Source: Stigmatella aurantiaca DW4/3-1 (GTDB lineage: Bacteria > Myxococcota > Myxococcia > Myxococcales > Myxococcaceae). From it: a stretch of 64,000 bases of DNA. Each line of letters starts with the position of its first letter. Positions within the stretch are counted from its first letter, which is position 1. The DNA is taken from the NCBI RefSeq assembly GCF_000165485.1, contig NC_014623.1, forward strand, positions 10,186,893 through 10,250,892. The letters are read 5' to 3'. Shown here piece after piece: positions 2,624-21,257 of the stretch. The translations under genes were made by a program, and so were the position numbers. The notes beneath the pieces were generated by a model that made no database searches, had not been told where the DNA came from, and saw only the letters and a program-made list of their open reading frames with translations.

Positions 2624-3634
2624 ATGAACGGAATGGATGCGCCGCAAGCGGACGGGCCTTGTCGAAGCCTCGTCTCGGTGGAAGTTCACCTGCACCCGGA
2701 CGAGGCCCGCCACGCGCTGCACGCCGAGGCCCTGACAGGGCTGTGCCACCGCCCCAAGGAGCTGTCCCCCAAGTGGCTCTACGATGAGCGCGGCAGCCAG
2801 CTCTTCGACGACATCACCCGGCTGCCCGAGTACTACCCCACCCGCCGCGAGCGCGAGATTCTCCTGGAGCACGCCCACGAGGTGGCCCGGCTCAGCGGCG
2901 CCGACACCCTCATCGAGCTCGGCAGCGGCACCAGTGAGAAGACCCGCCTGCTCCTCGGCGCCCTGCGGCGCACCGGCCGGCTCCGGCGCTTCATCCCCTT
3001 CGATGTGAGCGAGCACTTCCTGCGGCGCGCCGCCGCCACGCTCGCCCGCGACTACCCCGGCCTGCGCGTGCACGCCGTGGTGGGCGACTTCGAGCGCCAC
3101 CTGGCATACCTGCCCCGCGAAGGCCGAAGGCTCGTCGCCTTCCTCGGGGGCACCATCGGCAACTTCAAGCCCGCCGCGCGCGCGCGCTTCTTCCAGGAAG
3201 TGGCCCACAGCCTCGCCCCCGGAGATGGGCTCCTGCTCGGAACGGATTTGATCAAGGACCGCTCACGCCTGTTCGCCGCCTACAACGACAGCGCGGGCGT
3301 CACGGCCGAGTTCAACCGCAACGTGCTGCACGTGCTCAACCGCGAGCTGGGCGCCAACTTCGACGTGAACGCCTTCGCGCACCTGGCCCCCTTCGACGAA
3401 GAGCAGGGCTGGATCGAAATGCGCCTCATCTCCCAGCGCCCCCAGTGGGTGCACTTGCCCGCCCTCCGGCGCTCCGCCCACTTCGACGCGGGCGAGGTGC
3501 TGCGCACGGAGGTGAGCTGCAAGTTCCGCCCCCAGCAGGTGGAGTCGGAGCTGTTCGCCGCGGGGCTTCATCTGGCCGCGGGGTGGACGGATCGCGCGCG
3601 GGACTTCGCGCTCTCCTTGGCCTTCAAGCCCTGA
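2624..3634 (+). CDS. egtD: L-histidine N-alpha-methyltransferase EgtD
   Basis: EgtD trimethylates histidine with three S-adenosylmethionine to give hercynine, the substrate of EgtB. The 336-residue protein matches the family length. It shows the opening block PKWLYDERGSQLFDDITRLPEYYPTR cut around residues 46-71, an SAM-binding ELGSGTSEKT near 105, and LGGTIGNF near 175. The C-terminal half contains the histidine-recognition region up to RDFALSLAFKP. The chosen ATG follows a purine-rich AAGGGG; a second ATG lies four codons later. Co-transcription with egtB is indicated by the 18-base spacing. The product probably acts in redox protection. Confidence 0.93.
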   Translation: MNGMDAPQADGPCRSLVSVEVHLHPDEARHALHAEALTGLCHRPKELSPKWLYDERGSQLFDDITRLPEYYPTRREREILLEHAHEVARLSGADTLIELGSGTSEKTRLLLGALRRTGRLRRFIPFDVSEHFLRRAAATLARDYPGLRVHAVVGDFERHLAYLPREGRRLVAFLGGTIGNFKPAARARFFQEVAHSLAPGDGLLLGTDLIKDRSRLFAAYNDSAGVTAEFNRNVLHVLNRELGANFDVNAFAHLAPFDEEQGWIEMRLISQRPQWVHLPALRRSAHFDAGEVLRTEVSCKFRPQQVESELFAAGLHLAAGWTDRARDFALSLAFKP

Positions 3635-5115: not shown

Positions 5116-6000
5116 CTACTCCTTCCTGAGAAGCTTCAAAAGCCTGTCGAGGTCATCGTACGAGAAGTAATCCACCTCCAGGGTCCCTTTTCCTTGGCCT
5201 TTTTCGGCCAGGCGCACCTTGGTGCCCAGGAGCCGCTGGAGTTCCTCCACCAGCGCCTTCACCTGGGGGCTCTGCTTGGAGGGCTTTCCCGTGTCCTTCT
5301 TCTGCGGCCGCTTCTGCTGCACCAGCTTCTCGGTGTCGCGCACCGAGAGCTTCTCCTCCACCACGCGCGTGGCCAGCGCCTGCAACTCCGGCAGCCGCGG
5401 CACCCCGAGCAGCGCGCGCGCGTGCCCCATGCTCAGCGCGCCCTCGGCCACCAGCGCCTTCACATCGTCCGGCAACCCCAAGAGCCGCAGGGCGTTGGCC
5501 ACCGTGGAGCGCTCCTTGCCCACGCGCTGGCTGACCTGCTCCTGCGTGAGTTTGAACTCCTCCACCAGGCGGTGGTAGCCCTCCGCCTCTTCCATGGGGT
5601 TCAGGTCCGAGCGCTGGAGGTTCTCCACCAGCGCCAGCTCGAAGGCCTGCCCCTCCGTCACCTCGCGCACGATGGCGGGCAGCTCGTGCAGCCCCGCCGC
5701 CTGCGCCGCGCGCCAGCGCCGCTCCCCCGCGATGAGCTTGTAGCCCTGACCGTCCTTGCGCACGAGCACCGGCTGGAGCAGCCCCTGCGCCTTGATGGAC
5801 TCGGTGAGTTCGGCCAGCTTCGCCTCGTCGAAGTGACGGCGCGGCTGGGCGGTGTCCCGGTGGATGGACTCGATGGGCAGCTTGAGCACCCCGGCCTTGG
5901 CGGCCTCGGGGCTCGCCGCGGGCGCCGGCGCCGCCTGCGGAATCAGGGCGGAGAGGCCCCGGCCCAACGCCCGCTTGTGTTTGTCTCCTGCGTTCAACAC
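5116..6000 (-). CDS. parB: Chromosome partitioning protein ParB
   Basis: ParB is the CTP-dependent clamp that loads at parS and spreads to organise and segregate the origin region. The 294-residue product shows the N-terminal [10 protein letters not shown] box that stimulates ParA, the CTP-binding ParB/Srx domain with [10 protein letters not shown] (GERRWRAA at residues 92-99), a helix-turn-helix near 152-178 ([20 protein letters not shown]) and a C-terminal dimerisation segment. The start is a GTG with SD GGAG seven bases upstream, 11 bases after the parA stop. Four matching parS sites lie 200-350 bases upstream of parA. An operon with parA, the bactofilin and the lipoprotein is indicated by tight spacing. 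Confidence 0.97.
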
Positions 6001-6011
6001 GGCGTGTCTCC

Positions 6012-6812
6012 TCAGGCCACGTGGCGCTTGGAGGGATGGTGGCCCTCGCGGTTCATGATCTCCCGGCCCAGCGCCAGGTAGCTCTCACAGCCCTTGGACT
6101 TGATGTCATAGAGGATGATGGGCTTGCCGAAGGAGGGGCACTCGGCGAGCCGCACGTTGCGCGGCACCACCGCGGTGAACACCTGGTCCTTGAAGTAGCC
6201 CCGCGCCTCCTCCACCACCTGGTTGGCGATGTTCGCCCGCGAGTCGAACATGGTGAGCAGGATGCCCTCCATCTTCAGCCCCGGGTTGAGCCCCTGCTGC
6301 ACCAGGTCCACCGTGTGCGTGAGCTGCGACAGCCCCTCCAGCGCGTAGTACTCGCACTGGAGCGGGATGAGCACCGAGTCCGCGGCCACCAGCGCGTTGA
6401 GCGTGAGCAGCCCCAAGGACGGCGGGCAGTCGATGAGGATGTAGTCGTAGTCGGCGGCCAGCGGGCGCAGCGCCTCGCGCAGGCGGAACTCGCGGCGCTC
6501 CTGGTTGACGAGCTCCACCTCCGCGCCGGTGAGGTCCGGCGTGGCCGGCACCACCTGGAGAAAGCGCAGCTCCGTGGGGTGCAGCAGCTCGCGCATGGGG
6601 CGCCCGCCCAGGATGGCGTCATAAACGGTGCCCTGGAGCATCTCGCGCTTCAGCCCCAGCCCACTGCCCGCGTTGCCCTGGGGGTCCATGTCCACCAGGA
6701 GCGTGCGGCGCTCGGCCGAGGCCAGGCTCGCCGCGAGGTTGATGGCGGTGGTGGTCTTTCCGACGCCGCCCTTCTGGTTCGAGATGCAGATGATTCGACC
6801 CACGTGTCCCAT
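6012..6812 (-). CDS. parA: Chromosome partitioning ATPase ParA (Soj)
   Basis: ParA is a Walker-type ATPase that binds DNA non-specifically and moves ParB-parS complexes. The deviant Walker A KGGVGKTT lies at residues 14-21, followed by LVDMDPQGNAGSGLG and the Walker B-type DYILIDCPPSLGLLT. The rest of the frame matches the usual 250-265 residues. The ATG at 6812 has its purine run GAAGAGG immediately adjacent, which is too close. A GTG nine bases later (6803) would be ideally spaced, so the true start may be 6803. Upstream in-frame sequence has no homology and overlaps the region near the parS cluster. Confidence 0.97.
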   Translation of the reverse strand: MGHVGRIICISNQKGGVGKTTTAINLAASLASAERRTLLVDMDPQGNAGSGLGLKREMLQGTVYDAILGGRPMRELLHPTELRFLQVVPATPDLTGAEVELVNQERREFRLREALRPLAADYDYILIDCPPSLGLLTLNALVAADSVLIPLQCEYYALEGLSQLTHTVDLVQQGLNPGLKMEGILLTMFDSRANIANQVVEEARGYFKDQVFTAVVPRNVRLAECPSFGKPIILYDIKSKGCESYLALGREIMNREGHHPSKRHVA

Positions 6813-7000
6813 CCTCTTCGAGTGCCCGGACGTTTCCGGGGTCCAGCGTTGCCCACGGCACGTTCCCCACACCCTGGAGGGCAACGCCCCAACGGGTGGA
6901 AGCATGCACGCGCGCTATTGATCCACCAAATCGGTGGAGGATCCAGTCCGCTGCCCGCCCGCCCCGCCTGCGGCCCTGGCGCGGGCGACAAGGGGCGGAA

Positions 7001-7176
7001 TGTTCCACGTGGAACAAGGGGACGCCCGGCGGGGCGGCGCCGGAGCGAACGGGCAACCGGGGTGTTCCACGTGGAACATCAATCTTGAGTTCTCGGCCCA
7101 GACCGGACCGGGTGTTCCACGTGGAACACTGGTCCGGGTCGAGGTCCGCCGTCGGCCGCGTGTTCCACGTGGAACA
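7001..7176. other. Cluster of four parS centromere sites
   Basis: Four perfect 16-bp palindromes TGTTCCACGTGGAACA occur at 7001-7016, 7063-7078, 7113-7128 and 7161-7176, in the gap between rsmG and parA. The sequence is the canonical parS recognised by ParB. Centre-to-centre spacings are 62, 50 and 48 bases, about five or six helical turns. No other copy was noticed in the window. Myxobacteria are known to carry clusters of parS near parAB. Confidence 0.97.
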
Positions 7177-7270
7177 TCGCGCGGTCCCTGGAACTCGATG
7201 GCTTCGGCTGCCCGTTGCCCCCGGCCTCCCCCTCCCGCCGCCCGGAGGAACCCTCCGGGCCGTGAGGGGC

Positions 7271-7924
7271 TCAGGCCTGGGAGAACACGGCGACTTGCCG
7301 CTCGGCGCCGGAGAACGGCAGGCGGTACTGGCGCGAGGACACCACGCGCAGTCCCCTCTCCGAGGCCCGCGCCGCCAGCTCGGACTCCGGTTGGGCCTTG
7401 CCGAGCATCGCCACCACGCGCCCTCCCGGCCGCACGTACGCGGGCGCCAGCGCGAGCCAGTCCGGCAGATCCATGAACGCCCGCGCGATCAGCAGCTCCG
7501 CGCGCGGAATGCCCTCTCGCTCCGGGTCTCCCTCCGCGCGCAGGTGCAGCCCGCGGGCCTCCTTCAGGCCCAGCGCCGCGATGGCCGCCTTGAGAAACCC
7601 CACCTTCTTGCCCACCGCGTCCACCAGCGTCACCGCCAGCGCCGGCCGGGCCAGCTTGAGCGGAAGGCCCGGAAAGCCGGCCCCGGCCCCCAGGTCCAAC
7701 AATGAGGCGGCGCCCTCCACCTCGGGCAGCACCGCCAGCGAGTCCAGGAAGTGCTTCTCCAGCACCTCCTCGGGCGCGGTGATGGCCGTGAGGTTCACCT
7801 TGGCGTTCCACTTGAGCAGCTCGGCCATGAGCCGCTGGAGCCCGGGCGCCACGCCCTCGCCCAGGCTCAGCCCGAGCGCCTCGCCTCCTCGTTGAAGCTG
7901 ATCCACGAACCGCGCGTTATCCAC
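7271..7924 (-). CDS. rsmG: 16S rRNA m7G methyltransferase RsmG (GidB)
   Basis: RsmG methylates N7 of G527 in 16S rRNA with S-adenosylmethionine. The 217-residue protein has the family signature: LLKWNAKVNLTAIT near residue 40, HFLDSL near 58, the SAM-binding LLDLGAGAGFPGLPLKL near 74, and a central RAFMDLP block. The start is a GTG with SD GGAGGT a few bases upstream. It heads the minus-strand block that continues into parA-parB, with the parS cluster between. mnmG, its usual partner, lies about 10 kb away in this window. Confidence 0.95.
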   Translation of the reverse strand: MDNARFVDQLQRGGEALGLSLGEGVAPGLQRLMAELLKWNAKVNLTAITAPEEVLEKHFLDSLAVLPEVEGAASLLDLGAGAGFPGLPLKLARPALAVTLVDAVGKKVGFLKAAIAALGLKEARGLHLRAEGDPEREGIPRAELLIARAFMDLPDWLALAPAYVRPGGRVVAMLGKAQPESELAARASERGLRVVSSRQYRLPFSGAERQVAVFSQA

Positions 7925-9344: not shown

Positions 9345-10747
9345 GCCCACCCGGGGGCCGGCACGGGCATCAGCGGTGCCTCGCTGTCTCCCAACTGGCC
9401 GAAATCATTGAGCCCCCAGGCCCAAAGGCTGCCCCCGGCCTGCACCGACAGCGAGTGGTAGAAGCCGGCCGCCACCGCCACCTCCCCCTGGAGCCCGGGC
9501 ACCCGCACCGGCGTGGCGCGCTCCGGGGCGCGCTCATGGCCCAGCTGGCCCTCTTCGTTGCGGCCCCACGCCCAGACGGTGCCATCGGCCTGCACCGCCA
9601 CCGAGTGCATGCCCCCGGCCGCCACGGACGTCACCGCGCCCAACCCCTGCACGGGCGCGGGCCGGGCGCTCGAGGAGAAGGAGCCGTTGCCCAACTGACC
9701 GCTGTAGTTGTTGCCCCAGGACCAGAGGCTGCCCCCGGCCCGCACCGCCAGCGAGTGGTAGAAGCCTCCGGCCACGGCCACCACCTCGCGCAGCCCCTCC
9801 ACGCGCCCCGGCTTCGTGCGCTGGGTGGAGACGGCCTCTCCGAGCTGGCCGAAGCCGTTGTTGCCCCAGGCCCAGACGGTGCCATCCGCGCACAGCGCCA
9901 GCGAGTGGAAGCCTCCGGCCGCCACGGACACCACCTGGCTCAGCCCGGGAACGGGGACTGGCGTGGGGCTGTGCACGGTGGTGCCGTTGCCCAGCTGGCC
10001 ATAGTCATTGAAGCCCCACGCCCAGACGGTGCCGTCCGCGCACAGCGCCAGCGAGTGCATGTAGCCCCCCGCCACGGCCACCACGCCCTGGAGCCCGGGG
10101 ACCTGCACCGGCGTGGCGCGGTGGGCGGTGCTCCCGTTGCCCAGCTGGCCATAGCCGTTGTTGCCCCACGCCCAGACGGTGCCATCCGCGCACAGCGCCA
10201 GCGCGTGCGAGCCGCCGGCCGCCACGGCCACGGCCCGGCTCAGCCCAGGAACGGGCCGGGGCGCGGAGCGAGCCGCCGTGGTGCCGTTGCCCAGTTGCCC
10301 GGCGCTGTTGGAGCCACACGCCCAGACGGTGCCATCGGCATGCAGCGCCAGTGAGTATTGGTATCCACCCGCCACCGCCCTCACCCCGCGCTGATCCGCG
10401 GCCTGAGCCGGCGTGGCGCGGTGCTTCGAGGCCTCCCCTCCTCCGGCGCCCTCGCCGAGCCCCCGCAGCGTCCAACCCCCGCCCGAGGCGCGCAGCGCCA
10501 TCCCGTGGACACAGCAGGCGGCCAAGGCCGCCATGCCGCCCAGCCCCAAGGCTTGCACCGGTGAGGCGCGGCGGGAGGCGGCCCCCTTGGGCAGAAGCAC
10601 CTGCGGGGTGGAGGCCGCCGGGGTGCCCCGCCCGGAGGGTGAATCCGCCAGCCCACAGCCCGCGAGCAGACAGAAGCCCATCCATGGGAGGAGCTTCCGG
10701 GTCCGGCGCGTCTTCACTTGCGAATCCCTGCCACGGTATTTGGGCAT
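9308..10747 (-). CDS. RCC1-repeat lipoprotein (seven-bladed propeller)
   Basis: An exported lipoprotein: a basic N-terminus (KTRRTRK), a short hydrophobic stretch and the lipobox LLAGC. The mature protein consists of seven clear RCC1 repeats of about 50 residues, each with the pattern VAVAGG.HSLAL.ADGTVWAWG.N..GQLGNG, plus a degenerate first repeat. Seven repeats are enough to close a beta-propeller. Eukaryotic RCC1 is a nuclear exchange factor, but bacterial secreted copies are of unknown function and probably mediate binding at the surface. The start at 10747 has the SD GGAG eight bases upstream. A sigma54-type promoter and a palindrome lie directly upstream. The repeats are nearly identical in places, which suggests recent internal duplication. 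Confidence 0.88.
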   Translation of the reverse strand: MPKYRGRDSQVKTRRTRKLLPWMGFCLLAGCGLADSPSGRGTPAASTPQVLLPKGAASRRASPVQALGLGGMAALAACCVHGMALRASGGGWTLRGLGEGAGGGEASKHRATPAQAADQRGVRAVAGGYQYSLALHADGTVWACGSNSAGQLGNGTTAARSAPRPVPGLSRAVAVAAGGSHALALCADGTVWAWGNNGYGQLGNGSTAHRATPVQVPGLQGVVAVAGGYMHSLALCADGTVWAWGFNDYGQLGNGTTVHSPTPVPVPGLSQVVSVAAGGFHSLALCADGTVWAWGNNGFGQLGEAVSTQRTKPGRVEGLREVVAVAGGFYHSLAVRAGGSLWSWGNNYSGQLGNGSFSSSARPAPVQGLGAVTSVAAGGMHSVAVQADGTVWAWGRNEEGQLGHERAPERATPVRVPGLQGEVAVAAGFYHSLSVQAGGSLWAWGLNDFGQLGDSEAPLMPVPAPGWAQGKARVAFMSR

Positions 10748-10874: not shown

Positions 10875-10993
10875 CCCCCCGCGCCAGCGTCCAACCGGCT
10901 CGACAGACCTACACGCGCGGCGCCCGTCGGCCACCTTCACCCGTCATGTACGCTTGGCTTACACTCTGGCATGTGCCCACCGCCCCCAACGAT

Positions 10994-12517
10994 GTGACGC
11001 AGGACGGCGAGCGCGACAGGCTTCAACAGGAACGGGACTTCTACCGGAGCCTCCTCGAGTTGGGGGCCCGGGACTCCCTCGAACCATTCCTCGAAGAAGC
11101 CCTCGCCCTCAGCGCGAGCATGTCCGGTGCGAAGCGCGGCTACATCGAGCTCCAGGAGGATCAGCGCCCCGAGGGCCCCCCGCGCTTCTGGATGGCGCAC
11201 GGCTGTTACGATGAGGAAGTCGAAGAGATCCGCGCCACGTTCTCGCGCGGGGTCATCGCCGAGGCGCTCGCCACCGGGCAGACCATCGTCACCGAGTCCG
11301 CGCTGAGAGACCCGCGCTTCGGCTCGCGCAACAGCGTGCGGCGCAACCGCAGCGAGGCCGTGCTCTGCGCCCCCATTGGCGCCAGCCCCACCCTGGGCGT
11401 GGTGTACCTTCAGGATCGCCACCAGCCGGGCCCCTTCTCCGAGGAGGACCGCAAGCGGCTGGAGATCTTCGCCCGCTACCTGGCCACCTTCGCCGAGCGC
11501 CTGCTCACCCTGCACCGCCAGCGCGAGGCCGCCGACGCCACGCAGCCCTTCCGCGGCCGGCTCCGGGCCGAGGGCGTCATCGGCCGGAGCGCCTCGCTGG
11601 CGCGCGTGCTGGAGCAGGTGTCGCTCGTGGCGCCGCTGGATGTGAACGTGCTGCTCACGGGCCCCTCGGGCACGGGCAAGACGCAGCTGGCCCGCGTCAT
11701 TCACGACAACAGCCCGCGCGCCTCCCACCCCTTCCTGGAGCTCAACTGCGCCGCGCTGCCGGAGACGCTCGTGGAGAGCGAGCTGTTCGGCGTGCTGCCC
11801 GGCGCGCACTCCACCGCCTCGCGCAAGGTGGAGGGCAAGGTGGCCGCGGCCGAGGGGGGCACGCTCTTCCTGGACGAGGTGGGCGACTTGCCGCTCACCT
11901 CCCAGGCCAAGCTGCTCCAGCTGCTCCAGTCCCGGGAGTACTACCCGCTGGGCGGCACCCGGCCCCAGCGCGCCGACGTGCGGATTCTCGCCGCCACCAA
12001 CGTGGACCTGCGCGCCGCGGTGGCCCGGAAAACCTTCCGCGAGGACCTGCTGTACCGGCTCGAGGTGTTGCCGGTGCGCCTGCCCTCGCTGGCGGAGCGG
12101 CCCGAGGACTTGCTGGAGCTGGCCGAGTACTTCTGCGCCTCGGCGTGCGAGCAGCACCACCTGCCCCGGCTGCGGTTGTCCCCGGGGGCGCTGCGGGCGG
12201 TGGAGGCCGCGGAGTGGCCCGGCAACGTGCGGGAGCTCGCGCACAAGGTGCAGGCCGCCGTCATCCGCGCCTCGGGCGAGGGGGTGGCGCGCATCGAGCG
12301 CCGGCACCTGTTCCCCGAGGCCAAGGGCGAGGGCGCGCGGGGCCCCGAGCCGCTCACCTTCCAGGAGGCCACGCGCCGCTTCCAGGAGCAGCTGCTCCTC
12401 AAGACGCTGGAGGACACGGCCTGGAACATCACCGAGGCGGCGAGCAAGCTGGAGCTGTCGCGCTCACACATTTATAACCTGATCGCGGCCTTCGGCCTCG
12501 AGCGGAGGAAGCCCTGA
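10994..12517 (+). CDS. GAF-AAA+-Fis enhancer-binding protein (sigma54 regulator type)
   Basis: About 507 residues with three domains: an N-terminal GAF sensor (roughly 15-180), a central AAA+ ATPase (about 194-420) with Walker A GPSGTGKT near 222 and Walker B GGTLFLDEVGDLPL near 288, and a C-terminal Fis-type helix-turn-helix (EAASKLELSRSHIYNLIAAFGL cut near 480-500). Such proteins remodel sigma54 RNA polymerase. The loop that contacts sigma54, normally GAFTGA, reads GAHSTA here. GTG 10994 was chosen because homology begins just after it; an in-frame ATG at 10946 is an alternative, and neither has a strong SD. The kinase/STAND/FGE gene follows after 44 bases, so the two probably form an operon. 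The GAF domain suggests a small-ligand or redox signal. Confidence 0.88.
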   Translation: MTQDGERDRLQQERDFYRSLLELGARDSLEPFLEEALALSASMSGAKRGYIELQEDQRPEGPPRFWMAHGCYDEEVEEIRATFSRGVIAEALATGQTIVTESALRDPRFGSRNSVRRNRSEAVLCAPIGASPTLGVVYLQDRHQPGPFSEEDRKRLEIFARYLATFAERLLTLHRQREAADATQPFRGRLRAEGVIGRSASLARVLEQVSLVAPLDVNVLLTGPSGTGKTQLARVIHDNSPRASHPFLELNCAALPETLVESELFGVLPGAHSTASRKVEGKVAAAEGGTLFLDEVGDLPLTSQAKLLQLLQSREYYPLGGTRPQRADVRILAATNVDLRAAVARKTFREDLLYRLEVLPVRLPSLAERPEDLLELAEYFCASACEQHHLPRLRLSPGALRAVEAAEWPGNVRELAHKVQAAVIRASGEGVARIERRHLFPEAKGEGARGPEPLTFQEATRRFQEQLLLKTLEDTAWNITEAASKLELSRSHIYNLIAAFGLERRKP

Positions 12518-12561: not shown

Positions 12562-15500
12562 ATGCCGCGGCCACTGCCAAAACCGGGGTGGAGCCCTCCG
12601 GAAACGATGGGAGAGTACCGGCTGCTGCGCCTGCTGGGCCGCGGCGGCATGGGCCAGGTGTACCTGGCCGAGGACACCCTGCTGGAGCGCACCGTGGCGC
12701 TCAAGCTCATCGCCTCGGTGCGGCCGGACGAGGCCGCGCGCAAGCGCTTCCACGCCGAAGCCCGCGCCATCGCGCGCCTGTCCCACCCCAACGTCGTCAC
12801 CGTGCACCGGGTGGGGGAGGTGGACGGGCGCCCGTACCTCGTCACCGAGTTCATCCGCGGCCAGACGCTCGGTGAGCTGGCGCGGCCCATCGCCCCGGAG
12901 CGCGTGCTGACCATCGCCCTGGGGCTGGCGCGCGGGCTGGCGGCGGCGCACCGGCAGGGGGTGCTCCACCGCGACATCAAGCCGGCCAACGCCATGCTCA
13001 CCGAGGATGGCGAGGTGAAGCTGCTCGACTTCGGGCTGGCCAAGCTCCTGGAGGGCCCACGCATGGCCCCCCTGGAGGCGCCCGCCCGCGCCGCCCCCCC
13101 CGTGCCCGCCTTGCGCGAGCTGAGCGACGCGGAAGACCTGATGGGCACGCCGCTCTACATGGCGCCCGAGGCCCTGCGCGGGGAGCCCTCCACGCGCCGG
13201 AGCGATCTCTACTCGCTGGGGGCGGTGCTGTACGAGCTGTGCGCGGGCATTGCCCCGCGGCAGACGCTGGACGAGCAGATGCCCTTCGAGGCGTGGGCGT
13301 CGGCCGAGCCCACCCCGCTGCCGGAGCGGGTGAAGGACGTGGATCCGCGCTTCGCCGCGCTGGTGACGCGCTGCCTGCACACCGAGCCGGAGCGGCGCTT
13401 CGCCTCCGCGGACGAGCTGTGCGCGGCCCTGAGCGAGCTCAAGCGGGAGCGGGAGCAGCCCCCCGAGGGCGAGGTGCCCGAGGGCAACCCGTACCGGGGC
13501 CTGCGGCCCTTCGAGGCCGAGCACCGGGCGTTCTTCTTCGGCCGGAGCATGGAGGTGGAGGCGGTGCTGGAGCGGCTGCGCGCCGAGCCGCTCGTGCTGG
13601 TGACGGGGGACTCCGGGGTGGGCAAGTCCTCGCTGTGCCGCGCCGGGGTGCTGCCGCGCGTGGCGGAAGGGGCACTGGGGCCGGGGCGGCACTACCGCAC
13701 GCTGAGCCTCATCCCGGGCGCGCGCCCGCTGGCGGCGCTGGCCTCGGCGACCGAGTCCCTGCTGGAGAAGGGCGAGGCGCTGCCCAGCGAGTTGCTGCGC
13801 ACGGATCCCCGGGCCTTCGTGCGGGAGCTGTTGCGCACGCAAGGGCGCCAAGCGGGCACGCTGCTCTTCGTGGATCAGCTCGAGGAGTTGTTCACCATCG
13901 GCGCCCCGGAGGAGGCGGCGCCGTTCGCCGAAGGGGTGGTGCGGCTGTCGGACCTGCCCGGGGTGCGGGTGCTGCTGACGGTGCGCGGGGACTTCTTCAC
14001 GCGCCTGGCCTCGCTGCCGGGGCTGGGCGAGCAGGTGGCCCGCGCCCTGTACCTGCTCCGGCCGCTGTCGGCCGAGGCGGCGCGGGGGGCCATCGTGGGG
14101 CCGGCCCAGAGCCAGGGCATCCACTTCGAGTCCGAGGCGCTGGTGAGCACGCTGGCCGAGTCCGCGGTGAGCTCCGCCGGGGGCCTGCCGCTGCTCCAGT
14201 TCGCCATGGCGGAGCTGTGGGAGGCGCGGGACGAGGCGCGCCGGTGCATTCCGGCCTCGGCGCTGGAGGCGCTGGGGGGCGTGGACGGGGCGCTCTCGCG
14301 GCATGCGGACCGGGTGCTCGCGGGGCTGCAACCGGAGCAGCGCCGGGCGGCGCGCGCGCTGCTGCCGCGGCTGGTGAGCCCCGAGGGCACGGGGGCCCGG
14401 CGCAGCGGGGCGGAGCTGGACGCGGGGGAGCCCGCCACGCAAGGCGCGCTGGATGCGCTGGTGAAGGGGCGGCTGGTGGTGGCGCGGGAGACGGACGGGG
14501 AGACGACGTACGAGGTGGCGCACGAGGCGCTCTTGCGCGGGTGGGGCACGCTGCGCAGCTGGCTGGTGACGGAAGGGGAGAAGCGCCCGGTGCGCGAGCG
14601 GCTGGAGGCGGCGGCGGCGGAGTGGGCCCGGCTGGAGCGCACGCGCGAGGCGCTGTGGAGCGAGCGGCTGCTGCTGGAGACGCAAGGGGTGGACCGGGAC
14701 GCGCTGTCGCCCCGGGGCACGGAGTTCCTCGATGCCTCGCACTCGGCGACGCGGCGGCGGCGGTGGCGCCAGCGCGCGCTGCTCATGGCGGTGCCGCTGG
14801 CGCTGGTGCTGGCGCTGGGCGGGGTGCGGCTCCAGGCGCAGTGGACGCGGGCGCGGAAGGTGGCGTGGTACGAGGCGCAGGCCACGGGGCTCACCGAGCG
14901 GGGGCTGGCGCGCAAGCAGGCGGCGGAGGCGCTGCGGCTCCGGGCGCATGGCCTCTTCGAGGCGGTGGGCGGCGGGACGGTGGAGGAGACGGCGGCGCGC
15001 CGGGAGAGCGCCGAGCGCGCCTGGGAGGAGGCCCTCACGGCGCTGCACGAGGCGGACGACGCGCTCGATGAGGCGGGCCAATCGCTGGAGGCGGCGCTCG
15101 TGGTGGACCTCTCGAACGACCGGGTGCGGGGCCGCATCGTGGACGTGCTCATCGAGCGGCTCGAGCTGGCGGAGTCCTTCCACCAGCAGAACCGGCTCCG
15201 GGAGCTGACACGCCGGATCCGCGCCTATGACAGCGATGGGCTGCGCCAGGAGCGGCTCCAGGCCCCACCCGAGCTGTCGCTCACCTCGTCCCCCTCGGGC
15301 GCCGAGGTGGTGCTGGAGCGGTACCAGGAGGACGCGAAGGGCTACCGGACGCTCTCGGGCGCCCAGCGCCTGGGCCGCACGCCGCTCGCGAAGCTCGTGC
15401 TGGAGGAGGGCCCGGGCTCCTACCGGCTGACGCTCCACGCGCCCGGCCACGTGCCAGTGCAGGCCCCGGTGCTGTTGGGGCGCGGCGAGCACCTGCCGCT

Positions 15501-16359
15501 CCACGTGCCGTTGCCGGCGGAGGGCGCGGTGCCGGAGGGCTTCGTCTACGTGCCGCCGGGCCGGTTCCTGGTGGGCAGCGCGGAGCCCGAGGACATGCGA
15601 CGGGGGCTGCTGAACGCGCCGCCGCTGCACGAGAGCCAGACGGGGGGCTTCCTGGTGGCGCGCACGGAAGTCACCTTCGGCCAGTGGCTGGAGTTTCTCC
15701 GGGACGAGTCCCCGGGGGGCCTGGCCCAGGGGCGGAGGCCGTACTCGGACGTGCGCCAGTGGGGGGTGGAGCTGACGCCGGCGGCCTCGGGGCGGTGGCG
15801 GCTGACGTTCCAACTCAACAAGCGCTCCCTGTCGGCGAGCGAGGGCGAGCCGTTGCTGTTCCCGGGCCGGGCGGTGCGGCGGGAGCAGGACTGGTCGCGC
15901 CTGCCGGTGTCGGGCATCTCCTTCGAGGATGCGCGGGCGTACCTGGCGTGGCTGAACCGGACGGGCCGGGTGCCCGGGGCGCGCTTCTGCCACGAGCGGG
16001 AGTGGGAGCGGGCGGCGCGGGGGGCGGATGGGCGGGCGTTCCCGCACGGCAACCGGCTCGAGGCGGAGGATGCGAACTTCGACCAGACGTACGGGCGGAA
16101 GACGGATGCGTTCGGACCGGACGAGGTGGGCTCGCACCCGGCGTCGGCGAGCCCCTTCGGGCTCCTGGACATGACGGGCAACGTGTATGAGTTCACGCTG
16201 TCGATGGGGGCCCGGGAGGAGATCGCCATCCGGGGAGGCTCCTGGTACTTCGACCGGGTGTCGGTGCTGGCGGCGAACCGGACGTTCGTGGAGCCGCGGA
16301 CGCGGGACATCGGCACGGGGATGCGCGTGTGCGCCGATGCGCCCGCGGTGGGGCCGTGA
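12562..16359 (+). CDS. Ser/Thr kinase - STAND NTPase - formylglycine-enzyme-like fusion
   Basis: A 1265-residue signalling protein. Residues 17-290 are a Hanks-type kinase (LLGRGGMGQVYLAE, catalytic LHRDIKPANAM near 135, DFGLAK near 155, MGTPLYMAPE). Residues about 309-735 resemble the nSTAND1 module (NPYRGLRPFEAEHRAFFFGR, P-loop GDSGVGKSSL near 348, LLFVDQLEELF). A transmembrane segment lies near 737-756 after an Arg-rich stop. A helical stretch and a PEGA-like beta domain follow. A C-terminal FGE-sulfatase fold occupies 993-1262 (FVYVPPGRFLVGS, VTFGQWLEFL, GNVYEFT, IRGGSWYF, GMRVCA). The kinase is cytoplasmic and the FGE-like domain probably periplasmic. ATG 12562 has AAGGAG almost adjacent; the ATG at 12607 (GEYRLLRLLG) is an alternative. 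FGE catalytic cysteines are not evident, so it may be a binding domain. Confidence 0.9.
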   Translation: MPRPLPKPGWSPPETMGEYRLLRLLGRGGMGQVYLAEDTLLERTVALKLIASVRPDEAARKRFHAEARAIARLSHPNVVTVHRVGEVDGRPYLVTEFIRGQTLGELARPIAPERVLTIALGLARGLAAAHRQGVLHRDIKPANAMLTEDGEVKLLDFGLAKLLEGPRMAPLEAPARAAPPVPALRELSDAEDLMGTPLYMAPEALRGEPSTRRSDLYSLGAVLYELCAGIAPRQTLDEQMPFEAWASAEPTPLPERVKDVDPRFAALVTRCLHTEPERRFASADELCAALSELKREREQPPEGEVPEGNPYRGLRPFEAEHRAFFFGRSMEVEAVLERLRAEPLVLVTGDSGVGKSSLCRAGVLPRVAEGALGPGRHYRTLSLIPGARPLAALASATESLLEKGEALPSELLRTDPRAFVRELLRTQGRQAGTLLFVDQLEELFTIGAPEEAAPFAEGVVRLSDLPGVRVLLTVRGDFFTRLASLPGLGEQVARALYLLRPLSAEAARGAIVGPAQSQGIHFESEALVSTLAESAVSSAGGLPLLQFAMAELWEARDEARRCIPASALEALGGVDGALSRHADRVLAGLQPEQRRAARALLPRLVSPEGTGARRSGAELDAGEPATQGALDALVKGRLVVARETDGETTYEVAHEALLRGWGTLRSWLVTEGEKRPVRERLEAAAAEWARLERTREALWSERLLLETQGVDRDALSPRGTEFLDASHSATRRRRWRQRALLMAVPLALVLALGGVRLQAQWTRARKVAWYEAQATGLTERGLARKQAAEALRLRAHGLFEAVGGGTVEETAARRESAERAWEEALTALHEADDALDEAGQSLEAALVVDLSNDRVRGRIVDVLIERLELAESFHQQNRLRELTRRIRAYDSDGLRQERLQAPPELSLTSSPSGAEVVLERYQEDAKGYRTLSGAQRLGRTPLAKLVLEEGPGSYRLTLHAPGHVPVQAPVLLGRGEHLPLHVPLPAEGAVPEGFVYVPPGRFLVGSAEPEDMRRGLLNAPPLHESQTGGFLVARTEVTFGQWLEFLRDESPGGLAQGRRPYSDVRQWGVELTPAASGRWRLTFQLNKRSLSASEGEPLLFPGRAVRREQDWSRLPVSGISFEDARAYLAWLNRTGRVPGARFCHEREWERAARGADGRAFPHGNRLEAEDANFDQTYGRKTDAFGPDEVGSHPASASPFGLLDMTGNVYEFTLSMGAREEIAIRGGSWYFDRVSVLAANRTFVEPRTRDIGTGMRVCADAPAVGP

Positions 16360-16362
16360 GGC

Positions 16363-17415
16363 TCAATCCGGCTGGAACTCGCAGCCGACGTTCTCCACGC
16401 CCTCCACGGGGCACAGGAAGGGCATGGACGCGGAGGAGACCGCATCGAAGTTCTGGAGCCCCCGGTCCGCGGAGCTGCGGATGCCAATGAGGTCGCCCCC
16501 CCAACTCTGGCCGAGCACGGGCTCCGGGCACGCGCCGAGCACCCCGGCGAGATCCGACTCACACCCCTTCCAGCGGGGCCGCGCCACGCAGGTGAGGCCG
16601 TGCTGGTTCCACCGGGACTCGAAGGAGAAGGCCGAGCCCTCTCTGCGGCGCAGCAGGCCCAGGTTGTCGAAGATGTCGATGGCGGTGTTGGCGCAGGTGT
16701 AGGCCTTCACATGGTCATACTCGGCGCGGGCGGCGGGGACGCAGGCCTGGTGATAGGGCTGGAGGCTCTTGCCGGCGTAGCGGCCCCAGGGGACGTAGCC
16801 CCAGTGGGCGCACTTGGCGACCGTGCCGTCGTAGCAGGCGGCGGTGAACACGCTCTCGCCCTTGTACTGGGCGCGCCAGACGCCATCGGCCTCGTCCCAG
16901 TAGCCGGGGATGAGGAGCGCGGTGCCGCCCGGGGGCTCGGGGGCCAGCTCCCCCTCGGGGCCGGGCTGATACATGGAATCGGCGCAGAGGTTGGTGCCCT
17001 CGTAGGAGATTTCATAGGGCGTCAGCGAGGCGTTGACCTTGCCGAGGGTGTACGGGCTCTTGCGCACGAGCTTGACGGGGGCGGAGGGGCGGGAGCCGGT
17101 GGTGAGGTTGCGGCGGAAGAAGGCGTCGGCCTGGTTGCCGCCGAGGAACACGCCATCCCGGAGCGAGCCCTTGAGGAACACGACATGCTCCAGACACCCG
17201 CCGCGGTAGAGGGGGGACTGTGGCCGGGAGTCGAGAACGGCGCGGAACTGGAACTGCGAGTGCCGCACACCAAAGGGGCAGCGAGGATCCTCGATGACGG
17301 GCCGCTCGCGCGCCAAGGGGGCTTCGTCTGGAGCGGGAGGGGAACCGGAGGAGAGGAACGAGAGAACGGCGAGGACCCACATGGACACGATGGCGCTCAA
17401 GTCAGGCAGGCTCAT
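16363..17415 (-). CDS. Secreted ADYC-domain-like protein
   Basis: A 350-residue protein with an N-terminal hydrophobic segment (SAIVSMWVLAVLSFLSS) that looks like a signal peptide. The mature part has many cysteines and the pattern CYDGTVAKCAHWGYVPWG followed by HQACV, a KAYTCANTAIDIFDNLG block and a late ESRW stretch. This order resembles the ADYC-domain proteins common in myxobacteria, although the name-giving ADYC motif reads AYTC here. Function is unknown; extracellular adhesion or developmental roles are guesses. It is convergent with the kinase fusion, three bases apart. A sigma54-type promoter about 105 bases upstream and a palindrome 200 bases upstream suggest control by the neighbouring enhancer-binding protein. 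Confidence 0.7.
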   Translation of the reverse strand: MSLPDLSAIVSMWVLAVLSFLSSGSPPAPDEAPLARERPVIEDPRCPFGVRHSQFQFRAVLDSRPQSPLYRGGCLEHVVFLKGSLRDGVFLGGNQADAFFRRNLTTGSRPSAPVKLVRKSPYTLGKVNASLTPYEISYEGTNLCADSMYQPGPEGELAPEPPGGTALLIPGYWDEADGVWRAQYKGESVFTAACYDGTVAKCAHWGYVPWGRYAGKSLQPYHQACVPAARAEYDHVKAYTCANTAIDIFDNLGLLRRREGSAFSFESRWNQHGLTCVARPRWKGCESDLAGVLGACPEPVLGQSWGGDLIGIRSSADRGLQNFDAVSSASMPFLCPVEGVENVGCEFQPD

Positions 17416-17879: not shown

Positions 17880-19703
17880 TCAATCCCGGGCACGCTCGCG
17901 CTTGAGCGCCACCAGCACCAGCGACAGCGCCGCGGGCGTGAGGCCCGGAATGCGCCGCACCTGGCCCACGGTGCCGGGCCGGTGCGCGCTGAGCTTCTCC
18001 ACCGCCTCGGAGGACAGGCCGCGCACCTCGGCGAAACGGAAGCCCGCGGGAATCACCCAGCCATCCCAGGCATCCGCCTCCCGCGCGGCGGCCCGCTCGG
18101 CCTGGGCGATGTAGCCCTCGTACTTCACCTCCACCTCCACCTCCTCGGCCACCTCCGGAGGCACCTCGGGCCACTCGCGCGCCTCGGCCGCCAGGGAGGC
18201 ATAGGTCACCTCGGGCCGCTTGAGCCGGGCGCCCAGCCCGGAGCGCTTGAGCCGGGCCACCTCGCGCTGCACCGCATGCACCCGGGCCTCCACACGCTCC
18301 AGGGCCTCGCGGGGCAGGAGCCCCACGCGGTGCCCGTGGCGGGCCAAGCGCGCCTCGGCGTTGCCCTCGCGCAGCTTGAGCCGGTGCTCCGAGCGGCTGG
18401 TGAACATGCGGAACGGCTCGTCCACGCCCTTGGTCACGAGCTCGTCCACGAGCACCGCGCCGTGGGCCTCCTCGCGGCCGAGCAAGAGGGGCGGCTCGCC
18501 CTTCACCTGGAGCGCGGCGTTGAGGCCGGCGTAGAGCCCCTGGAAGGCGGCCTCCTCGTAGCCGGAGGTGCCGTTGAGCTGCCCGGCGAAGAACAGGCCG
18601 CGCACGGCCTTGGTCTCCAGGGTGGAGGACAGCTGCGTGGGCGGGGCGTAGTCGTACTCCACGGCGTAGCCAAAGCGCACCACCTCCACCTGGGCAAGGC
18701 CGGGGATGGAGCGCAGAAAGTCGAGCTGCACGTCCGCGGGCATGCTGGTGGACAGGCCGGCGGGGTAGACGAGGGGCGAGTCCGGCCCCTCGGGCTCGAG
18801 AAACACCTGGTGGCGCTCGCGGGCGGCGAAGCGCACCACCTTGTCCTCCAGCGAGGGGCAGTAGCGGGGACCCCGGCCGACAATGTCTCCCTGAAACAGG
18901 GGCGAGCGGTGAAGGTTGTCGCGCAACAACCGGTGGGTGGCCTCGGTGGTGAAGGTGATGCCACAGGTGACGGAGGGCTGGAGGGGGAAGGGGACGCCGG
19001 AGGCGATGTCCTGGCGGGTGCGCCACGAGAAGGGGCGGGGAGGGGCGTCGGTGGGCTGAGGCTCGACGGCATCCCAGTCGATGCTGTCGCGGCGAAGACG
19101 GGCGGGGGTGCCGGTCTTGAAGCGGCCCAGGGTGAAGCCGAGCGAGCGCAGCGAGAGGGACAAGCCGCGAGCGGCCTCATCGCCGAGCCGGCCACCGACC
19201 TCCTTCTTCTCGCCCACGTGCATGAGGGCCTGGAGGAAGGTGCCGGTGGTGAGGAGCACGGCGCGGGCCTGCACCTGGGAGCCATCGCCGAGCACCACCC
19301 CGGCCACGTGGCCGTCCTCGACGGCGAGGGAGGACACCTCGGCCTCGTGAACGGTGAGGTGGGGCTGGGAGAAGAGGGCGGCCTGGACGGTGCGGGCGTA
19401 GGCGTCGCGGTCACAGAGGATGCGGGTGGCCTGGACGGCAGGGCCCTTGGAGGCGTTGAGGGTCTTGAAGTGGGTGCCGGAGAGATCCGCGGCGCGGCCC
19501 ATTTCACCGCCGAGCGCATCGAGCTCACGCACGAGGTGGCCCTTGGCGGTGCCGCCGACAGCGGGGTTGCAGCTCATGACGGCGGCGCGGTCGCGCTTGA
19601 GGGTGAGCCCCAGGGTGGACAGGCCCAGGCGGGAGCAGGCGAGGGCGGCCTCGCAGCCCGCGTGGCCCAGGCCCACCACGATGACGTCATACCGGTGCTT
19701 CAT
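17880..19703 (-). CDS. mnmG: tRNA U34 modification enzyme MnmG (GidA)
   Basis: MnmG, with MnmE, installs the carboxymethylaminomethyl group on U34 of certain tRNAs using FAD, NADH and methylenetetrahydrofolate. The 607-residue length fits. The N-terminal FAD-binding motif VVGLGHAGCEAA follows six residues after the start, then CNPAVGGTAKGHLVRELDALGG, GRGPRYCPS in the middle and a helical C-terminal region ending in RIPGLTPAALSLVLVALKR. The ATG at 19703 was chosen because homology begins with MKHRYDVIV; the upstream extension has no homology. The SD is weak. The preceding frameshifted abiEii gene ends within the first codon. Confidence 0.96.
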   Translation of the reverse strand: MKHRYDVIVVGLGHAGCEAALACSRLGLSTLGLTLKRDRAAVMSCNPAVGGTAKGHLVRELDALGGEMGRAADLSGTHFKTLNASKGPAVQATRILCDRDAYARTVQAALFSQPHLTVHEAEVSSLAVEDGHVAGVVLGDGSQVQARAVLLTTGTFLQALMHVGEKKEVGGRLGDEAARGLSLSLRSLGFTLGRFKTGTPARLRRDSIDWDAVEPQPTDAPPRPFSWRTRQDIASGVPFPLQPSVTCGITFTTEATHRLLRDNLHRSPLFQGDIVGRGPRYCPSLEDKVVRFAARERHQVFLEPEGPDSPLVYPAGLSTSMPADVQLDFLRSIPGLAQVEVVRFGYAVEYDYAPPTQLSSTLETKAVRGLFFAGQLNGTSGYEEAAFQGLYAGLNAALQVKGEPPLLLGREEAHGAVLVDELVTKGVDEPFRMFTSRSEHRLKLREGNAEARLARHGHRVGLLPREALERVEARVHAVQREVARLKRSGLGARLKRPEVTYASLAAEAREWPEVPPEVAEEVEVEVKYEGYIAQAERAAAREADAWDGWVIPAGFRFAEVRGLSSEAVEKLSAHRPGTVGQVRRIPGLTPAALSLVLVALKRERARD

Positions 19704-20679
19704 GGGGCGGACGATAGACCAGGAAGAGGGGTGCGCGAGAGCCACGCGCCAATGACGGACACCGTCTCATCCAACGTCTGTCGCGGCCCCCAGAACATCC
19801 GCCCGATCGCCCCATAGGCCTTGCGAATGGCTTCGGTCCGAGCCCCGGGAGGCAACGTGAAAGCGGAAGAGCCAGGTTCTGGCGGCGGAGCGATCTGCTT
19901 CTGGCCGAGCATCTCCTTTGCGAGCGCTTTCACATCGGCGAAGTCCGGAAGGGGGGAAGGTTGGGCTCTGCGGCGATGATGCGCGCGGCGTCCTCGTAGT
20001 GACGCACGAAAGAAGCAGGCTCGATGTCTTCCCTCGGTACCTTCCTCTGAAGGGCATCGAGCTTCTCGAGGAGCGTGACAAGGGGGTGCACACACCGCAC
20101 GCCCTTGGGACGGTTGTCGTCGTAGTCGTCCAGGTGCCCCGTGGTCGCAAGATGGTCGTGTACGAAGGACGACATGTCGCGCGGCATGAAGGGCGTCACG
20201 CGCGCGTGGCCGACCTCCAACAACACGAAGGGCCTGAGGACGTCAGCAAGAGCGCCCAGGTGGCGAGCAGGGTAGAGGACACGCACGTTGCCGCTGCGCC
20301 AGCGGTCATCCGGGGTGTTCCGGTCGAGTTCGACCGTCGTGCCGGGGACGCGGATGAATGACGGGAGGGCTTCGAAGTAAGCGCGGCGCGCGTTCGTCGC
20401 CTGCGTCCCGTCACTCTTCCAATTGGAGACGGGGGACAATCTCACCCTTCCGGGCTCAATCTTCAGGTCCAGATCCTCGGAGAACCGGTGGATGAGGGAA
20501 AATCCTTTGGAAAGGGAGGTTCCCCCCTTGAACCAGACGTCAAAGCCTTCTTCATGGAGCGCCCAGAGCGTGTGGGTGACCCAATAGTCCTTCTCCACGA
20601 GCGCCAACGAGAGCTTGCGGTTGTCGGCAACAATCCGCAGCAGATCATCAAAGTCGGGGTCGGCGTGGATGAAACTCAA
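19700..20679 (-). pseudogene. abiEii: AbiEii-type nucleotidyltransferase toxin, frameshifted
   Basis: From a TTG at 20679 that overlaps the abiEi stop (TTGA), 249 codons run to a stop at 19930. The product shows the nucleotidyltransferase motifs of AbiEii/AbiGii toxins: WFKGGTSLSKG near residue 50 and FSEDLDL. After AEPNLPP the reading frame changes at a run of six C. One added C would join it to a frame encoding LPDFADVKALAKEMLGQKQ and the plausible C-terminal helix IRKAYGAIGRMFW, ending at 19700. The intact protein would have about 327 residues. The N-terminal NTase core is intact, so a truncated toxin may still be made. A sequencing error in the homopolymer or slippage-based switching is also possible. 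Confidence 0.8.
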
Positions 20680-21257
20680 ACAGCAACGTCCTGGAGTGCC
20701 GAATAGACCAAGACCCGGGTCGCCTTCGTCCCATACCGCTGCGCCATGGCCCCCAGACGCTCACGGTCAAAGGAGCCTCGCGCAAGCGCGCGCGAGAGCG
20801 CTCCCGCCAGTTCCGTGCGCGAAGTACCAGCACGCTCAGCGTTCTCGAAGAGATCCACCACGAACCACTCTGGCGAGGGCACCTGTGGGAACGGCACCCG
20901 CCGCAGCTCGAACCGCCGCCCCCCCAGCTCGAAGACCCCGGAACGCTTGATGTTGTAGACGAGCGGTGCCGCAAACAAGGCCGTTGCGCCAAGCCCGAGC
21001 GCGTTCCAGCGCTCGGGACCGGTGAAGACGAAGGGACTGCCCTCCAAGAACGCTTTCATGAGCGCATCGTCCCCAGGAGGCACCACGCCAAACTTGCTCC
21101 GCTTGGGGCAAGCAAACAGCCCCTGCGCTACCCGCACGAGCACTCCTCTTTCCACCAAGCGCTTGGCAAGCCGCGGGGGATTCGTGCTCCAGGGCTCGAA
21201 ATCCCGTGTGCGGTAGACGCATCCCGCCTCAAGAGGTGGCAGTGCCTTGGAAGCCAT
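20676..21257 (-). CDS. abiEi: AbiEi-family antitoxin/transcriptional regulator
   Basis: A 193-residue protein with an N-terminal winged-helix-like part (PPRLAKRLVERGVLVRVAQGLFACPKRSKFG) and a C-terminal domain (SPFVFTGPERWNALGLGATALF, ELGGRRFELRRVPFP) typical of AbiEi antitoxins. Type IV AbiE systems pair it with a nucleotidyltransferase toxin, and AbiEi represses the operon. The toxin start overlaps its stop by four bases. The ATG has GGAG about ten bases upstream. The operon sits between mnmG and the NACHT remnant. No clean operator repeat was found upstream, only an AT-richer TTTGTACGC / CATACG pair. Confidence 0.8.
   Translation of the reverse strand: MASKALPPLEAGCVYRTRDFEPWSTNPPRLAKRLVERGVLVRVAQGLFACPKRSKFGVVPPGDDALMKAFLEGSPFVFTGPERWNALGLGATALFAAPLVYNIKRSGVFELGGRRFELRRVPFPQVPSPEWFVVDLFENAERAGTSRTELAGALSRALARGSFDRERLGAMAQRYGTKATRVLVYSALQDVAV

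Follow-up and report, generated by a model that had tools for sequence, protein, structure and literature searches.

A predicted transmembrane kinase-nSTAND1-FGE-fold protein of Stigmatella aurantiaca, genetically coupled to an ADYC-domain protein and a regulator, as a candidate signalling module

We analysed a window of 64,000 nucleotides from Stigmatella aurantiaca DW4/3-1 (positions 10,186,893-10,250,892 of its single 10,260,756-bp contig), which carries at 12562-16359 on the forward strand a gene for a putative receptor kinase of 1265 aa. The gene is a single uninterrupted open reading frame (ORF) starting with ATG, and its product combines, from the N-terminus, a Ser/Thr kinase, an nSTAND1 NTPase, a predicted transmembrane helix, a helical and PEGA-like segment, and a domain with the fold of the formylglycine-generating enzyme (FGE), an architecture based on the ORF, Pfam profiles, three paralogs and an ectodomain model. 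The kinase domain (aa 19-286, 12616-13419; E 1.4e-46, 159.5 bits against a cut-off of 31.7) is of the Hanks type, with VALK, HRDIKPAN and DFG motifs. It is followed by the nSTAND1 domain (PF20703; aa 310-695, 13489-14646; E 1.4e-100, 338 bits against a cut-off of 27.1), with a Walker A (GDSGVGKS) and a Walker B (FVDQLEEL), while the C-terminal part matches the FGE-sulfatase family (PF03781; aa 993-1256; E 3.3e-28, 99.5 bits against a cut-off of 23.3). The initial annotation of this gene had proposed that the three domains lie in one chain, and both the reading frame and the Pfam matches bear this out.

The protein contains one hydrophobic segment, whose windows start at residues 737-741, directly after the sequence RRRRWRQR. 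From hydropathy, we predict a transmembrane helix at about aa 737-759 (14770-14838) with an arginine-rich N-terminal side. In 39 homologs examined, the most hydrophobic window ahead of the FGE domain lies 241-261 aa before it, with a Kyte-Doolittle mean of 1.43-2.51. Because this predicted helix separates the STAND from the FGE domain, the kinase and nSTAND1 are predicted to be cytoplasmic and the FGE-type domain to lie on the opposite side of the membrane, in agreement with the topology originally suggested. The presumed periplasmic part would start with a helical stalk and a PEGA-like beta domain (aa 760-992, 14839-15537), the PEGA match itself (aa 936-985) scoring 21.3 bits, barely above the cut-off of 20.8, and end with the FGE/C-type-lectin-fold domain (aa 993-1265, 15538-16356). 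Structure prediction, which had been recommended as a check, supports this view: an AlphaFold2 model of aa 760-1265, built with 31 aligned sequences of the family, has a mean predicted local distance difference test (pLDDT) score of 89.1 and consists of helices followed by beta strands, and a Foldseek search with it recovers FGE-fold structures, with CalU17 as the best match (E 6e-14), together with SUMF2, FGE, EgtB and PvdO.

A frameshift or chimera joining two separate genes, the possibility that would have undone this picture, is excluded by the intact ORF and by three paralogs elsewhere in the genome (49, 50 and 47% identity), all of them full-length and free of internal stops. This genome contains 132 matches to the window kinase query, nearly all across the kinase domain, 7 full-length nSTAND1 matches above the cut-off (an eighth, partial one passes only when combined with its in-frame neighbours) and 6 FGE matches; kinase, nSTAND1 and FGE domains are combined in four proteins. 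Homologs of the ectodomain were found in 76 of the 195 Myxococcota genomes searched, and the architecture is conserved.

Convergent with the kinase gene, and separated from it by 3 nt, we found a gene on the reverse strand (16363-17415) for a 350-aa protein with an N-terminal hydrophobic segment of the export type and an ADYC domain (PF20032; E 2.7e-27, 96.5 bits against a cut-off of 27, profile positions 39-176 of 176), in which the ADYC motif itself is degenerate. The same genome has five ADYC matches, four of which lie beside the four kinase-STAND-FGE genes, although in one locus (L063; L numbers are our labels for loci) a divergent sigma-region-4-like gene separates the two. The fifth (L132, ~882112-882777) adjoins a gene for an M28-family peptidase, near a gene for a cyclase-AAA-TPR protein.

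This association extends across the order. In 79 genomes we identified 82 ADYC matches, restricted to 30 genomes, and 75 family kinases (homologs of the C-terminal part with E <=5.6e-43, after removal of weaker matches to FGE only and of a second fragment of one gene), which occur in the same 30 genomes; the remaining 49 have neither, and none has one only. Counted from the C-terminal match of the kinase, 71 of the 82 ADYC matches and 71 of the 75 kinases are at most 3.5 kb apart. In these 71 pairs the ADYC gene is downstream on the same strand (45), upstream on the same strand (16) or convergent downstream (10), and since three relative arrangements keep the pair together, the link survives rearrangement. 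Of the other 11 ADYC matches, four are no more than 350 bp from a contig end and one lies 21 kb from a family kinase. Four more are paired convergently with the gene of a different Ser/Thr kinase, 1074-1078 aa long (one identified as a kinase-TPR protein by Pfam, three by an HRD-type motif and similar length), and for the last two (the fifth copy of S. aurantiaca and G072:C84) no kinase motif was found in the 15-18 kb around each. At the level of the phylum, 74 of the 195 genomes have both kinase and ADYC, two the kinase only, one ADYC only, and 118 neither. From these comparisons, the constant neighbour of the kinase is an ADYC-domain protein with predicted export, which the initial annotation had overlooked, and not an enhancer-binding protein.

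We also scanned GTDB contigs for ADYC and, of 189 confirmed matches, kept the 80 best, which represent 79 loci. In 40 of these a family FGE domain is adjacent, in 39 as a single ORF with the kinase and in one split (L248), and all 40 are Myxococcota by title, with the exception of one Comamonas-titled record. The latter (L256, BNCN01000008.1, Comamonas sp. KCTC 72670) is a typical receiver-kinase-ADYC locus, and its organism label is probably wrong. Nine further myxobacterial ADYC loci of this set have no family FGE domain, two of them (L274, L284) being at contig ends; a kinase-TPR gene lies directly upstream of ADYC in L263, and a kinase-AAA gene 2 kb upstream in L228. Tandem pairs of ADYC genes behind one kinase were observed in L231, L238 and L240.

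The other neighbour of the window kinase is a GAF - sigma54-type AAA+ - Fis helix-turn-helix regulator (10946-12517, forward strand; Pfam and loop motif; we chose the in-frame ATG at 10946, whereas the listed ORF begins at 10718), whose gene ends 44 nt ahead of the kinase ATG. A regulator gene lies within 2.5 kb of the kinase in 72 of the 75 loci, and its type varies. Upstream of the kinase and on its strand we found FHA-sigma54 activators in 25 loci, a sigma54 activator cut by a contig end in one, GAF-AAA+ proteins in three (that of the window and those of two congeners) and receivers in 25; a 26th receiver is downstream on the opposite strand. Sigma-70-region-4-like genes (16 loci) and a gene for an FHA-GAF-HATPase protein (one locus) are also upstream, but on the other strand. 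Of the three loci lacking a regulator, L209 and L212 are close to contig ends, and L179 is the one with the distant ADYC gene. Eight of the regulator neighbours were scanned with Pfam, a better test than our FHA and Walker A patterns, which missed some enhancer-binding proteins, and gave five FHA-sigma54 activators, one FHA-GAF-HATPase protein, one receiver and one sigma-region-4-like protein. Regulator type tracks the clades of the FGE tree (a single FastTree run, midpoint-rooted). The sigma-region-4-like proteins of L063, L064, L229 and similar loci are ~310 aa long, and outside the helix-turn-helix have no Pfam match in the two scanned.

The initial annotation had placed the kinase in an operon with a GAF enhancer-binding protein. 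An AAA+ regulator is indeed adjacent on the same strand, but the GAF type is confined to those 3 of 75 loci, and the name enhancer-binding protein is doubtful for the window copy, since its sigma54-contact loop reads GAHSTA. The loop is GAF[TS]GA in 26 of the 29 AAA+ regulators and GAHSTA in the three GAF proteins of the window clade, and the window regulator may thus not act on sigma54. It differs in both respects from the FHA-domain enhancer-binding proteins of Myxococcus, which we take to be FHA-sigma54 activators: GAF replaces FHA, and GAFTGA is missing.

Concerning catalytic status, the 73 scorable kinase domains of the family all have DFG, 72 each have the Gly loop, VAxK and HRD, and 71 have APE, by motif scan. 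Across the 67 family STAND domains, Walker A and the D-Q-x-E-E columns of Walker B (D438/Q439/E441/E442) are at least 95% identical in the alignment, which overturned the apparent absence of Walker B from 30 of the 67 given by a first pattern. The FGE domain is different. The stretch from GGSW onward, which we take to be the site of the catalytic cysteine pair in true FGE, has no cysteine within 24 residues in the window copy (GGSW at aa 1225), as had been remarked from the outset. We extended this census to 111 FGE domains of the family, of which 72 come from the order set and 39 from the ADYC-neighbour set (101 distinct sequences, some genes being present twice): 107 have no cysteine in the 24 residues, four have one, and none has two. 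We therefore rejected an active formylglycine-generating enzyme, and because the catalytic pair is absent from all 111 domains, the ectodomain is probably lectin-like, sharing its fold with human SUMF2, FGE, EgtB and PvdO. Two other cysteines, Cys1143 and Cys1257, are common to all 111 domains in the alignment and may form a structural disulfide, and Glu1210 of the GN..E motif, presumably the calcium-binding residue in FGE, is kept in 110. Three basal members (L159, L208, L209) have a single cysteine 11 residues into the corresponding GGSY stretch; we take this for the second catalytic position, and the residue may be a vestige of the FGE pair.

The STAND domain is not obligatory, and in this respect the original reading of the protein needs amendment. 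Seven family kinases, with ORFs of 858-1035 aa (the start probably being set too far upstream in the longer ones), have no STAND domain yet preserve the kinase and FGE domains, a convergent ADYC gene and an FHA enhancer-binding protein gene (one of which is cut); an eighth, on a 5.8-kb contig (L212), was left out of the count. In the FGE tree they form one group amid STAND-bearing relatives, which reads as a single loss of STAND. That one clade without STAND retains kinase, FGE and ADYC suggests a core of these three parts to which the STAND switch is an accessory. Selenocysteine or readthrough had been considered for homologs marked as containing one TGA, but in the one read (L118) this TGA is the normal C-terminal stop and the protein is simply without STAND. 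Two more kinase-nSTAND1 proteins have no FGE domain (L065:6084-10063 and L066:5284-9454); each is followed by a similar exported-looking protein of ~335 aa (WA[QK]GVS, by eye) that may represent a second family of partners. A further protein of the S. aurantiaca genome (L067:5884-10206) has a TIR-like N-terminus (by eye) fused to nSTAND1 and is likely a conflict-system protein.

In most ADYC proteins the domain is preceded by a signal peptide or a lipobox, as judged from hydrophobic stretches by eye (with ambiguity for long or cut ORFs), and some have N-terminal repeats of the NG-x-x-L type, also by eye. Five cysteines are invariant across 54 aligned sequences. A model of the ADYC protein of L227, a Myxococcaceae metagenome-assembled genome, reached a mean pLDDT of 84.9 and a predicted template modelling score of 0.80, with 235 of 353 residues at 90 or above. 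Foldseek found no match to it in the PDB at E <=0.001, and the best hit of a second structural comparison had a Z of 3.6 across 66 residues. Profile positions 28-119 match designed pentapeptide-repeat proteins, which concerns the N-terminal repeat-like part and not the ADYC domain. In L261, L264 and L298 (cyanobacteria and Mesorhizobium), a small exported-looking NG-x-x-L repeat protein (by eye) is encoded directly before the ADYC gene. ADYC (PF20032) is a curated family, on which we found no paper in the open-licence literature.

The genetic coupling of the kinase, an exported-type ADYC protein and one regulator gene is well supported by genome comparison. We propose that these form a three-gene signalling module built around a receptor kinase with a lectin-fold ectodomain, a reading to which we assign a probability of roughly one half. 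The non-catalytic FGE ectodomain and ADYC, either soluble or as an envelope lipoprotein, would constitute the sensing unit; that an exported protein is coupled to a kinase with a non-catalytic lectin-fold domain outside suggests placing ADYC on the sensing side. A ligand or a change in the envelope would shift the ectodomain, and nSTAND1, located between the membrane helix and the kinase, would serve as an NTP-dependent switch by which kinase domains are clustered or set free. The active kinase would then phosphorylate the neighbouring regulator or feed a phosphothreonine-reading FHA domain, leading to a change in transcription, an idea strengthened by the same-strand upstream FHA-sigma54 activator of 25 of the 75 loci; for the window kinase, the GAF-AAA+ protein would be this output. 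Binding, the direction of the signal, STAND gating and phosphotransfer are steps that we infer. A stronger version, in which ADYC is the dedicated exported ligand or co-receptor of a large myxobacterial receptor-kinase family with an NLR-like STAND switch beneath the membrane, outputs being swapped while ADYC and ectodomain stay, is tentative and in our view has the odds against it.

Several observations weigh against the proposed module. ADYC exists without the family kinase in 30 loci among the best 80 of 189 matches, with no family FGE domain beside it in 13 cyanobacterial, 12 Nannocystis and 5 Mesorhizobium/Azospirillum loci, and since the kinase is absent there, ADYC would have another role in these groups. 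The AAA+ protein of the window has neither GAFTGA nor an FHA match by Pfam, and no enrichment of sigma54 promoters was found upstream of the ADYC or regulator genes: in the nine scanned regions upstream of convergent ADYC genes (a tenth was too short) the best p was 0.045, in one region, and of 28 regions upstream of regulators, one (L165) had a site matched by 0 of 100 shuffles. The distance matrices of FGE and ADYC correlate at 0.84 (64 loci), yet those of the kinase domain and ADYC correlate at 0.91; because the latter value is higher, the correlation reflects shared history rather than a specific interface, and specific coevolution of ectodomain and ADYC is unsupported beyond it.

The chief rival of the sensing-module reading is that ADYC is an output: the kinase would sense something else through its FGE domain and turn on the neighbouring ADYC envelope protein via the regulator. 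Target genes commonly adjoin their regulators, ADYC appears exported, and in other groups it has no such kinase beside it, which would fit an envelope protein working on its own. However, ADYC is on the kinase strand in 61 of the 71 pairs, in 45 of which it is downstream and plausibly co-transcribed, the nine regions upstream of convergent ADYC genes offer no clear sigma54 sites, and the link with the kinase holds whatever the type of regulator. We regard this alternative as doubtful.

Less probable still, and unlikely in our judgement, is that the protein is a conflict or immune receptor, whose FGS domain would recognise an invader and whose kinase would be the effector. In the passages of Kaur et al. 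(2021; eLife, PMC8195603) on such chains, STAND-FGS proteins are conflict systems that sense invaders, often with effector-associated domains (EADs) and diversity-generating retroelements (DGRs), the latter possibly elsewhere in the genome; nSTAND1 is included, and S/T/Y kinases figure among the N-terminal domains. The window protein indeed has a STAND NTPase and FGS in one chain by Pfam, thus the same three domain types, there are several copies per genome, and the hosts are multicellular bacteria. In contrast with those systems, the predicted transmembrane helix puts FGE outside, and the neighbours are ADYC and transcription or phosphosignalling proteins, in neighbourhoods that are stable within clades. 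Moreover, the S. aurantiaca genome has no reverse transcriptase closer than about 160 kb to the four kinases (the nearest of its seven matches being about 166 kb away from any of them), so that linkage in this genome does not speak for a DGR-diversified FGE domain. Pfam scans of the immediate neighbours revealed no EADs or toxic effectors, although no search was aimed at EADs. That adjacency reflects common ancestry alone, without a functional link, is very improbable: most loci derive from a few ancestral ones and distances correlate as shared history predicts, but the pair is kept in three relative arrangements, is present or absent together across 195 genomes, and ADYC pairs with a second kinase type too.

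Other known systems share parts of this architecture. The Planctomycetota transmembrane Ser/Thr kinases with a periplasmic sulfatase-modifying-enzyme domain (PMC11032199) are likewise described as single-pass kinases with an FGE-type ectodomain; the term nSTAND does not occur in that paper. The DGR-diversified antigen sensors described in PMC10907252 likewise have STAND and a C-type lectin (CLec)/FGE-fold domain, whereas the present family is kinase-linked and predicted to be transmembrane, with no linked reverse transcriptase in the S. aurantiaca genome. ADYC is absent from the main text of PMC8195603. A genomic survey of Myxococcaceae signalling contains none of six domain terms outside its reference list, and a 2010 kinase classification has no mention of FGE, sulfatase or formylglycine. 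In the open-licence literature, we found neither a paper joining Myxococcus, serine threonine kinase and formylglycine nor a report of an ADYC/regulator module. The single kinase-STAND-FGS chain is thus of a known kind, and its transmembrane form, accompanied by ADYC and a regulator, appears to be a variant not yet described.

The module would give ADYC its first functional context. Little is known in general about what such kinases sense and control, and here a candidate input (ADYC), a STAND switch, a kinase and a candidate output regulator all lie within one short locus. Because it joins all these parts, and natural STAND-less variants provide controls, the role of STAND inside a receptor kinase is directly testable.

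Elsewhere in the window, a second FGE-fold gene (1274-2605, 443 aa) is followed by a methyltransferase-like gene (2624-3634), resembling by eye an EgtB-EgtD ergothioneine pair. The kinase locus seems, also by eye, to lie inside an mnmG-rsmG-parAB cluster, with ParB/ParA and RsmG on one side (5116-7924) and MnmG on the other (17880-19745), and MnmG-like and RsmG-like genes flank the kinase locus of a congener (L135) too. Finally, two overlapping genes on the reverse strand (19930-21257) resemble by eye an AbiEii/AbiEi-type nucleotidyltransferase toxin-antitoxin pair.

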